From: Egicoccus sp. AB-alg6-2
GTDB taxonomy: Bacteria > Actinomycetota > Nitriliruptoria > Nitriliruptorales > Nitriliruptoraceae
Length of the DNA: 64,000 nucleotides
Direction: 5' to 3'
Assembly (NCBI RefSeq): GCF_041821025.1
Contig: NZ_JBGUAY010000005.1
Span: 396,664 to 460,663 of the forward strand
Part shown: positions 53,098-60,492 of the stretch, piece after piece
Numbering within the stretch: position 1 is the first letter of the stretch
Layout: each line of letters begins with the position of its first letter
The notes under the pieces: model-generated
What the model was told of the DNA's origin: nothing
Database searches by the model: none
What the model saw: the letters and a program-made list of their open reading frames with translations, nothing else
Translations under genes and position numbers: made by a program

Positions 53098-53936
53098 GCA
53101 CGACCCACGATGCACCGATTGTCTACGACGTCGATGCGATCGTCGCGGTGGCCGTCGCCTCGGGCGACCGGCCCCCGCGACCGTCGGCGGTGTCCACCTC
53201 CCTCACCTTCGCCTGGCGGGCGCTGCTGAAGATCCGTCACATCCCCGAGCAACTCCTGGACGTGACGGTGTTCCCGGTCATGTTCCTGCTGATGTTCACC
53301 TACCTGTTCGGCGGCGCGGTCGCCGGCTCCACCGGGGCGTACCTGCAGGAGGTCGTCCCGGGAATCCTGGTCATGCAGGTGGCCTGGATCAGCATGTACA
53401 CCGGGCACACGCTCAACCGCGACATCACCAAGGGCGTCCACGACCGCTTCAGGTCGTTGCCGTTGTGGCAGCCGTCCACCCTGGTCGGCCCGTTGTTGGC
53501 CGACTCGGCGCGCTACACGATGGCGTCGACGGTGATCCTCGGACTCGGCTTCGTGCTGGGATTCCGGCCAGGCGCGGGCGTGAGCGGCCTGCTGCTCGGC
53601 ATCGCGGTGCTGCTGGTGTTCTCGTTCAGCCTGTCGTGGATCTGGACGACGGCGGGGCTGCTGCTGCGCTCGGAGAACGCCGTCTTCTCGGTCGGCAACA
53701 TGGTGATGTTCCCGCTGACGTTCGTCAGCAACGTGTTCGTGCCCACCGAGACGCTGCCGGGCTGGCTGCAGGGCTTCGTGCGGGTCAACCCGGTGACGCT
53801 GGTGGTGACCTCGGTCCGCGGCTTCGTCCACGGCGACCCGCAGGCGGGCGCGACCGTGGCGGTGCTGGCGATCAGCGCCGTGCTCGTGGCGGTGTTCGGG
53901 CCACTCACGATGTGGCTGTACCGCCATCCGAGGTAG
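53094..53936 (+). CDS. ABC-2 type transporter permease, DrrB type
   Basis: A 280-residue six-helix ABC-2 permease: TFAWRALLKIRHIPEQLLDVTVFPVMFLLMFTYLFGG at the first helix, and the conserved cytoplasmic SLPLWQPSTLVGPLLADSARYT loop. Works with the DrrA-type ATPase as an exporter. The ATG overlaps the ATPase stop (ATGA). Its last 32 bases overlap the convergent ECF S-component gene. Confidence 0.9.
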   Translation: MSTTHDAPIVYDVDAIVAVAVASGDRPPRPSAVSTSLTFAWRALLKIRHIPEQLLDVTVFPVMFLLMFTYLFGGAVAGSTGAYLQEVVPGILVMQVAWISMYTGHTLNRDITKGVHDRFRSLPLWQPSTLVGPLLADSARYTMASTVILGLGFVLGFRPGAGVSGLLLGIAVLLVFSFSLSWIWTTAGLLLRSENAVFSVGNMVMFPLTFVSNVFVPTETLPGWLQGFVRVNPVTLVVTSVRGFVHGDPQAGATVAVLAISAVLVAVFGPLTMWLYRHPR

Positions 53937-54834
53937 GGGCGCCGTCCACGGTGTCGTCGCCGCGACCACCGGCGGCGCGCGGCCCGGAGGCGCGCGGCCC
54001 GGGCACGACGTCGAACGCGACCGGCACGTCGAAGGCGGCCTTGCGGGAGGCGCGGCGCATCGCACGCAGCAACGGACGGCCGGTGAGCAGCACCAGCCCG
54101 GCGGTGACCAGCGCCCTCGGGACGTCGAAGCCCAGCGAGGTCAACGCGCTGAAGGCGAGGAACCGTCGCAGGTTGTCGGCAAGCGGATCGCCGGGAACGA
54201 ACGAGATCGCGGTGGTTCCGGGCAGGGTGAAGGGCCAGAACGACAGGTTCAGCAGCAGCCCGTACAGCAGACCGGCCGCCAGGCCGTAGGCGGCGAGCAG
54301 CGCCAGTTCGGCGCGGCCCCGCATTGGTGGGAGCAGGCCAGCGCCGGCAGCGACCCAGGCTGCGCCCAGCATCTGGAACGGCAACCAGGGTCCGACACCT
54401 CCGGTCGTGAGTGCGGACGCGAACAGGGTCGTCGCCCCGAGCACGAACCCGAAGCCGGGGCCGTGGACGCGTCCGGCGAGGACCAGCAGGAAGAACACCG
54501 GTTCGAAACCGGCGACGCCGGTCCCGAGTGGCCGCAACGCCGCGCCGACCGCCGTCAGCACGCCCAGCATGGCGACCGCCTTGGCGTCGATGCCGCCGTC
54601 GGCGATTTCGCTGAGCACCACCAGCAGTACCAGCGGCAACAGCACGGTGAACAGCAGCGGTGCTTCCCGCAGATGGGCGATGCCAGTCCCGGGGTCGACC
54701 AACAGCGGCCACGCGAAGGCGGCGAGCCCGACGATCGACGCGAGCAGGACGGCGGCCGCCGCGCGTGGACGCAGCCGGATCGAACGGCTGGGCCGCGGTC
54801 TGGCCGCCGGTGGCGTCCCGGTCGTGGCGGTCAC
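53905..54834 (-). CDS. ECF transporter substrate-binding (S) component
   Basis: A 309-residue membrane protein with about six to seven helices (residues 41-265), the size and layout of ECF S-components, followed by a disordered C-terminal tail. Characteristic pieces: LGVLTAVGAALRPLGTGVAGFEPVFFLLVLAGRVHGPGFGFVLGATTLFASAL and GGVGPWLPFQMLGAAWVAAGAGLL. S-components bind the vitamin directly; because the operon is led by a cobalamin riboswitch, cobalamin is the likely ligand. GTG start overlaps the A-subunit stop (GTGA). It overlaps the opposing permease gene by 32 bases. Confidence 0.83.
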   Translation of the reverse strand: MTATTGTPPAARPRPSRSIRLRPRAAAAVLLASIVGLAAFAWPLLVDPGTGIAHLREAPLLFTVLLPLVLLVVLSEIADGGIDAKAVAMLGVLTAVGAALRPLGTGVAGFEPVFFLLVLAGRVHGPGFGFVLGATTLFASALTTGGVGPWLPFQMLGAAWVAAGAGLLPPMRGRAELALLAAYGLAAGLLYGLLLNLSFWPFTLPGTTAISFVPGDPLADNLRRFLAFSALTSLGFDVPRALVTAGLVLLTGRPLLRAMRRASRKAAFDVPVAFDVVPGPRASGPRAAGGRGDDTVDGAPTSDGGTATS

Positions 54835-56447
54835 GGCAGCACCGCCAGCGCCTCGGCGACCTCGCCCGGCGTCAACCACACCGCCGGTGCCAGCACCTTG
54901 GCGACCTGGGGTGAGAAGGCCGGTGAGCCGACGACCACCTCGTCGGTCGGACCGTCGGCGACGACCTCACCATCGGCGATCACGACGGTTCGTGTCGCGA
55001 TCTCCGCGGCCAGTTCCACGTCGTGCGTGGCCAGCAGGATCGCCGTCCCCTCGGCGGCCAGCTCCGCGAGCAGCAGTGCCAGTCGCTCCTTCGTGCGGTA
55101 GTCCAGGCCCCGCGTCGGCTCGTCCAGCAGCAACAGCGGCGGCCGACCGACGAGCACGAGGGCAAGCACGAGGCCGAGGCGTTGTCCCTCGGACAGGTCA
55201 CGCGGATGCCGGTCGTCGTCGAGCCCGGGCACCAGCCGGTGAAGCAGGGCCCGGCAGGAACCGGCGGCCACACCGGCATCGTCGTCGGCGTGGGCGCACT
55301 CCTGTGCGACCGTCTCGGCGTACAGCAGGTCGGCCGGTTCCTGCGGGACCAGGCCGACCTGCCGGATCAGCGCCCTGGGCCGCAGCGACGCCGGGTCGAG
55401 ACCGCCGAGGCTGACGGTGCCCTGCAGCGGCCGGTGGAGGCCGACCAGCGTGCGGAGAAGCGTCGACTTCCCCGCGCCATTGCGGCCCATGACGGCCACG
55501 ACCTCGCCCGCGCTGACGTCGAGGTCGACGTCCCGGACGGCGAGGACGGGCCCGAGGCGCACGCTCACCTTCCGCATGGACGCGACCACCGGGGCGTCGG
55601 GTTCGAACGCCCAGCGGCGCGGTCGCGGACGGTCGACGAGCCGCTCCCGCAGTTCCGGGGCACGCCGGCGTGCGTCGCGCACCGACAACGGCAGCGGATC
55701 CCAGCCGGCGATGCGGCCGAGCTCGACCACCGGTGGCGCGACCGGCGTCGTCACCAACACCTCGGCCGGTGGGCCGACCTGCAGCGCCCTGCCGTCACCG
55801 GGCACGTGGATCACCCGGTCGGCGTACTGCACCACCCGTTCGAGCCGGTGCTCGGCCAGCACGACCGTGACCCCGAGGTCATGCACGAGTCGTTGCAGTG
55901 CGGCCAGGACCTCCTCGGCCGCCGGTGGGTCCAGTGCCGAGGTGGGCTCGTCGAGTACCAGCACCTTGGGATGCGCGGTCAGGACCGAACCGATCGCGAC
56001 GCGCTGCCGCTGGCCGCCCGAGAGCTGCTCGAGGGGCCGGGCACGCAGGTCGACCAGTCCGAGCAGGTCCAGGGTCTCCTCGACCCGTCGGCGCATGACC
56101 TCGCCGGCGAGGCCGAGCGACTCCATCCCGTAGGCGAGCTCCTCCTCGACGGTGTCGGTCACGAATCCCGAGCGCGGGTCCTGGCCGACGACCCCGACGA
56201 CGTCGGCGAGTTCACGGGGCGGGTGCAGGCGCGTGTCGCGGCCGTCGACGACGACCCGGCCGTGCAACGTGCCGCCGGTGAAGTGGGGCACCAACCCGTT
56301 GATGGTGCCGAGCAACGTCGACTTGCCGGAGCCGGTGCGCCCGACGACCAGGCACAGCTCACCCTCGGGGATCTCGAGGTCGACGTCCTGCAGCGCGGGG
56401 CGTTCGGCCCCGGCGTAGGTGACCCCGACGTGCTCGAACCGGATCAT
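54831..56447 (-). CDS. ECF transporter fused A-A' ATPase
   Basis: A 538-residue protein with two ECF-type ABC ATPase domains fused: NBD1 GRTGSGKSTLLGTINGL, signature LSGGQRQRVAIGSVL, Walker B VLVLDEPTSALD; NBD2 MGRNGAGKSTLLRTL, signature LSEGQRLGLVLAL, Walker B LLLLDEPTRGLD. In ECF transporters the two ATPases drive toppling of the S-component through EcfT. Genes are usually separate (ecfA1, ecfA2), but fusions are common in actinobacteria. The ATG overlaps the EcfT stop (ATGA). Confidence 0.92.
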   Translation of the reverse strand: MIRFEHVGVTYAGAERPALQDVDLEIPEGELCLVVGRTGSGKSTLLGTINGLVPHFTGGTLHGRVVVDGRDTRLHPPRELADVVGVVGQDPRSGFVTDTVEEELAYGMESLGLAGEVMRRRVEETLDLLGLVDLRARPLEQLSGGQRQRVAIGSVLTAHPKVLVLDEPTSALDPPAAEEVLAALQRLVHDLGVTVVLAEHRLERVVQYADRVIHVPGDGRALQVGPPAEVLVTTPVAPPVVELGRIAGWDPLPLSVRDARRRAPELRERLVDRPRPRRWAFEPDAPVVASMRKVSVRLGPVLAVRDVDLDVSAGEVVAVMGRNGAGKSTLLRTLVGLHRPLQGTVSLGGLDPASLRPRALIRQVGLVPQEPADLLYAETVAQECAHADDDAGVAAGSCRALLHRLVPGLDDDRHPRDLSEGQRLGLVLALVLVGRPPLLLLDEPTRGLDYRTKERLALLLAELAAEGTAILLATHDVELAAEIATRTVVIADGEVVADGPTDEVVVGSPAFSPQVAKVLAPAVWLTPGEVAEALAVLP

Positions 56448-60329: not shown

Positions 60330-60456
60330 GGTGGAGCCGCGCGTCCGTGGCAGGTGCTCCGGCTCGCCGTCGCACGGACCGGGGTCCGTGTCACGGCCTA
60401 CGGTTGCGGGTCAGCGCCGGACTTGGACCGGCTTCCCCCGCGCACGGGCGTGTGGT
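60330..60456 (-). promoter_or_regulatory. Cobalamin (B12) riboswitch aptamer
   Basis: The minus strand contains the conserved blocks of the cobalamin riboswitch in order: GGGGAAGCCGGTCCAAGTCCGG, then CGCTGACCCGCAACCGTAG, a variable P-stem (CACGGACC/GGTCCGTG), and the B12-box GAGCCGGAGCACCTGCC, close to the actinobacterial consensus. It lies 150-280 bases before the operon's first start codon. Exact ends are uncertain because the P1 stem could not be settled by eye. Confidence 0.85.
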
Positions 60457-60462
60457 GGCCGC

Positions 60463-60492
60463 AGTGCAGCACGCCGCCGGTGCCGGTGTCAA
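60463..60492 (-). promoter_or_regulatory. Predicted promoter of the cobalamin-uptake operon
   Basis: A perfect -35 TTGACA (60487-60492) and a TGCACT -10-like box (60463-60468) are 18 bases apart on the minus strand, placing the RNA start at about 60456, just ahead of the riboswitch. Confidence 0.5.

Follow-up and report, generated by a model that had tools for sequence, protein, structure and literature searches.

A probable vitamin B12 uptake operon in Egicoccus sp. AB-alg6-2 with a predicted two-part surface receptor and a dedicated ECF importer

Could a bacterium divide the two halves of an animal-type vitamin B12 (cobalamin) carrier between its cell wall and its membrane? This question is raised by a minus-strand operon in a stretch of 64,000 nucleotides of Egicoccus sp. 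AB-alg6-2 of the Nitriliruptoria, phylum Actinomycetota (RefSeq assembly GCF_041821025.1, contig NZ_JBGUAY010000005.1, positions 396,664 to 460,663), which is called the window here. Behind a cobalamin-riboswitch-like RNA lie genes for two predicted exported proteins, named A and B in the following, and for the EcfT, EcfA and putative S-component of an energy-coupling factor (ECF) transporter. We consider it likely that this is a B12 uptake operon, in which a predicted alpha-toroid protein with S-layer homology (SLH) modules and a predicted membrane-tethered beta-domain protein would close round cobalamin and feed the dedicated ECF importer. The features are the following:

60332..60477, minus strand: cobalamin-riboswitch-like RNA ahead of the operon, with the RF00174 core at 60353-60437
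58611..60176, minus strand: gene of protein A, 521 residues; signal peptide, alpha-toroid, SLH modules
59145..60074, minus strand: alpha-toroid of A (roughly residues 35-344), placed by predicted structure, fold match and mapping to intrinsic factor
59532-59534, 59403-59405 and 59229-59231, minus strand: toroid residues D215, N258 and Q316, mapped to intrinsic factor
58614..59144, minus strand: SLH modules of A, residues 345-521 (PF00395)
57607..58614, minus strand: gene of protein B, 335 residues; signal peptide, beta domain, low-confidence linker, C-terminal helix
58195..58509, minus strand: beta domain of B, residues 36-140, with a predicted fold like that of the beta domain in transcobalamin and intrinsic factor
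57631..57681, minus strand: C-terminal helix of B, residues 312-328, read from predicted structure and sequence as a transmembrane (TM) anchor, followed by a basic tail
56444..57601, minus strand: gene of EcfT (CbiQ family), 385 residues, with a PF02361 match
54831..56447, minus strand: gene of EcfA, a fused double ECF ATPase of 538 residues with two PF00005 stretches
53905..54834, minus strand: gene of S, a putative ECF S-component of 309 residues, PF12822 below cut-off

The genes follow each other in the order A-B-EcfT-EcfA-S, with 4-base overlaps at A/B, EcfT/EcfA and EcfA/S and a 5-base gap at B/EcfT. An earlier reading of the same DNA from its letters alone (the sequence-only reading) had given this five-gene order and the same junctions, three overlaps of 4 bases and a single gap of 5. 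The coordinates derived again are identical, and the genes and the layout that it had observed are confirmed, subject to corrections on the riboswitch, B and the toroid.

The operon is widely conserved. When one genome was scanned for each species, B proved to have 326 relatives, of which the best 80 loci were kept; L093, a duplicate of L092, was dropped, leaving 79, and the contigs of some relatives end within the operon. Apart from L045, a contig titled Rhodobacteraceae, the best 80 loci are all titled as actinobacterial. In 70 of the 79 loci B comes immediately after the toroid, 50 keep the complete set of five genes in order, and B-EcfT-EcfA is found in 62; 92 toroid open reading frames (ORFs) are spread across 70 loci. 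In the family of the window itself, B is matched in 19 of 35 genomes, and in nine of the 14 of these genomes that are at least 90% complete. A plasmid search matched 2 of 72,556 records, both from Embleya and both partial. The contig of L045 comes from a metagenome-assembled genome, carries a Nitriliruptoria-type B gene and is probably misbinned.

The strongest support for a receptor in two halves is provided by relatives in which the halves are fused, including one that ends in SLH modules and stands behind a cobalamin riboswitch. Both halves are encoded by one ORF in ten cases within the 79 loci, in the order toroid-beta in L079 and L021/L122, as in the animal carriers, and as beta-toroid or beta-toroid-toroid in eight. 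In L122 (5483-7834), from genome G015 of the window's family, an open frame of 784 residues runs through toroid, then beta, then SLH modules, and the upstream RF00174 match of 34.8 bits is over the Rfam cut-off. The ECF operon of G015 lies elsewhere (L123); it consists of riboswitch-B-EcfT-EcfA-S and has no toroid within the 16 kb read. These two loci and the other fusions show that evolution handles toroid and beta as a single unit, and that the joined form can bear the wall anchor as well. In the window, alpha and beta are encoded by separate genes and A is not such a single chain. The missing neighbour of the beta gene in L123, as well as unlinked or duplicated toroid and beta copies in some loci, would also fit a B12 uptake operon with no composite receptor, in which A and B each bind or store cobalamin alone or one of them is a docking or wall factor. 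However, G015 does encode a toroid at another place (L122), joined there to a second beta domain, and the adjacency of the two halves in 70 of 79 loci and their fusion in ten ORFs speak against independent proteins, so that we regard this alternative as unlikely.

The way in which the halves are held at the surface seems exchangeable within the family, comprising free secreted forms, TM or LPXTG-like tails, SLH modules and single-chain fusions. By a crude hydropathy test, 58 of the 92 toroid ORFs have a hydrophobic TM-like tail, 25 end at most seven residues past the toroid, four have SLH modules, and five have none of these. Among the beta ORFs, 110 in all, a hydrophobic tail is present in 64; another 39 stop where the domain does, in some cases because the contig ends. 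An SLH match is found in 41 of 111 relatives of A and a match to the LPXTG anchor model in 15. The SLH anchoring is a local variant. The sequence-only reading had called the split between wall and membrane unusual; the SLH modules of A and the predicted TM helix of B agree with the split, but SLH modules are local (4 of 92 toroid ORFs) and the layout is that of the general actinobacterial SCO2321-SCO2322 type. In Kitasatospora-type loci (L060, L074, L078, L080 and L095) an untethered toroid and beta pair stands behind one riboswitch, and near the ECF genes a second riboswitch-led unit encodes a protein of the form beta-toroid-toroid that ends in a hydrophobic tail. Possibly, these loci encode a secreted B12 scavenger next to a tethered receptor. 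Immediately before the operon, but on the other strand, the same loci (e.g. L060:10427-10499) have extra cobalamin-riboswitch-like matches, which suggest a divergent gene under B12 control.

One link of the operon to cobalamin is the RNA ahead of it. An E-value scan matches RF00174 at 60437-60353 with an E-value of 1.3e-5, and with 150 of 219 candidates scored, the genome of 3.7 Mb has no second RF00174 match at E <= 0.001. Two further models were used, R1, which includes the window sequence, and R2, a leave-out model from 14 relatives, all of them RF00174 cut-off matches, which excludes it. R2 gives the window 76.6 bits at 60438-60332, the runner-up place reaching 13.8 bits; the 104.5 bits under R1 were obtained with the window as part of the model. 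The window RNA and clear RF00174 members share an aptamer core at the equivalent place. In an alignment of 16 sequences, 14 of 24 base pairs show two-sided changes, the structure being derived from that same alignment. RF00174 is over cut-off in 14 of the 21 relatives' loci scanned, with 15 matches in total, of which 14 are on the same strand 160-444 nucleotides upstream of the toroid domain and the remaining one is on the opposite strand. The same-genus genome G009 has the same five-gene operon and scores 89.6 bits with R2, yet stays below the Rfam cut-off like the window. With R1, a riboswitch is found at most 700 nucleotides upstream of 76 of the 92 toroid ORFs and in 65 of the 70 toroid-bearing loci. 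The 76 include L076, whose distance of -59 is an artefact of a short first fragment of the hidden Markov model match. Among the 16 others, three have less than 450 nucleotides of upstream sequence and five are beta-first fusions with the riboswitch preceding the beta domain. Folding of the leader in search of an expression platform yielded no information: z is -0.95, and equally good or better folds arise in 19 of 100 shuffles.

The surface proteins have to be considered next. The SLH modules of A score 86.3 bits (Pfam cut-off 20.8), and the host genome contains 76 SLH matches and one pyruvyl transferase, with PF04230 over cut-off and the CsaB model nearest (191.1 bits, cut-off 213.1). A has the features of an SLH wall-anchored protein in a host with a probable enzyme for a pyruvylated polymer. 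Its toroid is predicted with a confidence (pLDDT) mostly above 90, and hhalign aligns it to the alpha domains of the carriers with an E-value of 2.6e-4 over 237 columns. Cobalamin contacts of the intrinsic factor alpha domain are T70, Y115, D153, D204 and Q252. In the alignment, D215 of A corresponds to D153, N258 to D204 and Q316 to Q252. D153 and Q252 are identical in A, and D204 is replaced by Asn, which is also present in the transcobalamin and haptocorrin sequences. Among 111 toroid relatives, chosen for spread from 120 listed with nine left out, D215 is conserved in 111, N258 in 108 and Q316 in 109. Different binding motifs are given in PMC4350170, namely TNYYQ for the alpha domain and bulky residues for the beta domain. 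In the fold search with B, 14 of the 15 best matches are transcobalamin, intrinsic factor or haptocorrin, and the likeness of B to the carrier beta domain is one of predicted fold. Between the beta domain and the C-terminal helix (block pLDDT 62-75) lies a low-confidence linker of roughly 170 residues. Export of both A and B is predicted, as is the TM anchor of B.

The remaining three genes together appear to encode an ECF transporter set. EcfT matches PF02361 (CbiQ) with 37.1 bits (cut-off 25). EcfA matches PF00005 (ABC_tran) in two stretches with 188.7 bits, and its best NCBIfam models are two ECF ATPase equivalogs at 301.6 and 294.1 bits, below their cut-offs of 330 and 315. S reaches 25.3 bits with PF12822 (cut-off 30.7) and has no match in NCBIfam, and its relatives carry the source annotation "ECF transporter S component". 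The EcfT and fused ECF ATPase of the sequence-only reading are therefore upheld by PF02361 and the two ABC domains, but its S-component stays below the family cut-off. The host would have use for such an importer. Its genome has seven B12-binding domain matches, five of them over cut-off. Among the matches are methylmalonyl-CoA mutase domains over cut-off, a methionine synthase (MetH) with 1004.3 bits (cut-off 1010.85) on an ORF truncated where the locus ends, and a CarH-like B12-binding regulator (G000:C1:93355-93660) that falls short of its family cut-off (148.9 bits, cut-off 400). CobS and CbiC have no match in the genome, which is 98.4% complete, and a PduO-type adenosyltransferase is matched. 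Because MetH, methylmalonyl-CoA mutase and the PduO-type adenosyltransferase are present and CobS and CbiC are absent, the host likely depends on imported cobalamin. The PduO-type adenosyltransferase gene (L116:5278-6674, contig C5 of host genome G000) overlaps a TroA/BtuF-like gene seemingly devoid of a signal peptide, whose product is perhaps an intracellular cobalamin handler.

Several results weigh against a B12 receptor with its own importer, and they concern the RNA, both surface proteins, the S-component and the host. The window RNA does not reach the gathering cut-off of RF00174 (29.1 bits, cut-off 31.5), and a gathering-score scan of the whole window returned two tRNAs and no cobalamin riboswitch. 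The sequence-only reading had expected an Rfam cobalamin match at 60330-60456. Such a match is missing at the gathering score but present by E-value, and the minus-strand riboswitch that it had proposed gains from the leave-out model and from being unique in the genome. For A, PF01122 gives no match at E <= 1, nor is it among the 21 families matched by the 111 relatives (E <= 0.1). Matches to PF00432 and PF13243 are both below the Pfam cut-off. The closest folds to the toroid (residues 35-324) are terpene cyclases of the squalene-hopene and type II kinds, and in the profile search terpene cyclases are closest too, with no cobalamin carrier among the 60 matches listed. The hhalign probability for the toroid is 42, a wrong-domain control having reached an E-value of 0.023, and T70 and Y115, two of the five contacts, are not kept in A.

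These fold and profile matches would suit a secreted terpene-cyclase-like or prenyltransferase-like enzyme whose linkage to the operon is incidental. However, where type II terpene cyclases have the catalytic motif DxDD, the window has A-V-D-A, and the last acid of the motif is missing in 111 of 111 relatives, residue 216 being Asp in none. In addition, the toroid is predicted to be exported and wall-anchored, is linked to a riboswitch, and is fused in relatives to a carrier-like beta domain. An enzyme is thus very improbable, and a terpene cyclase as the principal reading of A is rejected on the DxDD positions. The ancestry of the toroid may well lie among the terpene cyclases. Of the SLH-anchored alpha-toroid protein proposed from the letters alone, the SLH modules and the predicted toroid stand, and of the five contact positions three align and two do not; the PF01122 relationship does not stand, and the nearest folds are indeed cyclases, the last DxDD acid being absent from A.

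For B, the best Foldseek E-value is 4.9e-3, and the Pfam scan found no domain, PF14478/DUF4430 included; PF14478 is also found in none of 98 relatives (22 of 120 listed were left out by choice of spread). PF28005 is listed for most relatives of B. Searched against solved chains, the profile of the 98 picked up no cobalamin carrier, and in hhalign the beta domains matched to each other (E 0.33) do no better than beta against alpha (E 0.16). The DUF4430-like domain formerly assigned to a tethered exported B has accordingly to be replaced by a predicted carrier-type beta fold, while the tether agrees with the predicted C-terminal TM helix.

The profile of 31 S relatives, taken from 120 listed, found no solved S-component at E <= 1 and no tie to a known B12 S-component, and a folate-family S-component model is weakly matched by nine of the 31. 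A folate identity of S was rejected, the matches being weak only; the clustering with another vitamin family that would have spoken against the sequence-only reading is limited to them. We infer the B12 specificity of S from the riboswitch and the operon only. An S-component with no solved relative leaves room for a cobalamin-controlled system that takes up something else, be it cobinamide (a corrinoid precursor), cobalt or a different vitamin, and CbrT of Lactobacillus delbrueckii takes cobinamide too, according to PMC5997447. However, cobalt or cobinamide would be of little use to a host in which CobS and CbiC were not found, and the predicted beta fold resembles cobalamin carriers, so that another substrate seems improbable. 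The host also encodes other importer domains (five FecCD, four Peripla_BP_2) that could carry B12. Taken as a whole, the two-halves receptor feeding an ECF importer, as first proposed, is supported in part: it draws on fused relatives, predicted folds, SLH modules and the TM helix, but family cut-offs are missed, the toroid is nearest to cyclases, and the S-component has no link to a known B12 S-component.

For the preferred B12 receptor and importer, the following mechanism could be imagined. In B12 shortage the riboswitch would permit expression of the operon, and the wall-held toroid of A would capture the vitamin. The beta domain of B, on a long flexible linker whose roughly 170 residues would allow it to reach the wall, might then cap the toroid-bound B12 by analogy to the transcobalamin halves. 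The complex of A, B and cobalamin would come to lie near EcfT, EcfA and S, and the vitamin would be released to the S-component. Human transcobalamin halves expressed separately assemble only with cobalamin present, as stated in PMC5599065, and this may be regarded as the strongest precedent for a composite receptor closed by cobalamin.

Among known systems, the closest are the SCO2321 (NF053823) and SCO2322 (NF040672) families, whose names, SCO2321_fam and SCO2322_fam, state no function. They are the best NCBIfam matches of A (104.5 bits, cut-off 300) and B (32.0 bits, cut-off 85), both below cut-off. Actinobacteria of this type likewise have the order toroid-beta-EcfT-EcfA-S in many loci, and SCO2321 to SCO2325 presumably form one operon in S. 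coelicolor. In contrast to A with its SLH modules, SCO2321-type proteins have a TM-type tail. Compared with the animal carriers, the halves are two separate proteins here, each predicted to be anchored, PF01122 is unmatched, the sequence similarity of the beta halves is non-significant, and receptor endocytosis is absent. Parts of the idea of a two-halves B12 receptor already exist in databases, because PF14478 is named "transcobalamin-like C-terminal" in InterPro, and in SEED annotations a predicted ECF transporter for cobalamin comes with additional lipoproteins. BtuG is a surface B12-binding protein, and BtuG and BtuH of gut Bacteroidetes are Gram-negative lipoproteins working with BtuB; their importer is a different one. 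By role, folds set aside, they likewise capture B12 at the surface before the importer (for BtuH, PMC8941943). ECF-CbrT of L. delbrueckii likewise combines an ECF module with an S-component for B12 uptake (PMC5997447), whereas the S-component of the window is not detectably related to any solved one and the operon encodes its own dedicated module and added surface capture proteins. In the papers listed, titles and the beginnings of abstracts contain no description of the operon or of a bacterial intrinsic-factor pair, and Gram-positive actinobacterial B12 capture outside the membrane is not described in the literature as far as searched. The single listed paper in which SCO2321 occurs deals with a skin-penetrating peptide.

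If the composite receptor exists, two families named only after S. coelicolor genes would obtain a function, and there would be a bacterial counterpart to the carriers of humans, in whom pernicious anaemia results when they fail. Its small separable halves could be used for measuring cobalamin-driven closing, and the family would be a case in which one receptor gains and loses wall anchoring. More tentatively, and with somewhat less than even confidence, actinobacteria might possess a modular intrinsic factor whose alpha-toroid and beta halves close round B12. Always preceded by a cobalamin riboswitch, it would occur as pairs released from the cell (a protein cobalophore), as pairs anchored in the membrane or wall, and as toroid-beta-SLH single chains. 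The animal B12 carriers would then be the branch that eukaryotes have of a design for vitamin capture that is bacterial.

Elsewhere in the window, the two tRNA genes over the Rfam cut-off are located at 18486-18559 on the minus strand and at 36215-36287 on the plus strand.

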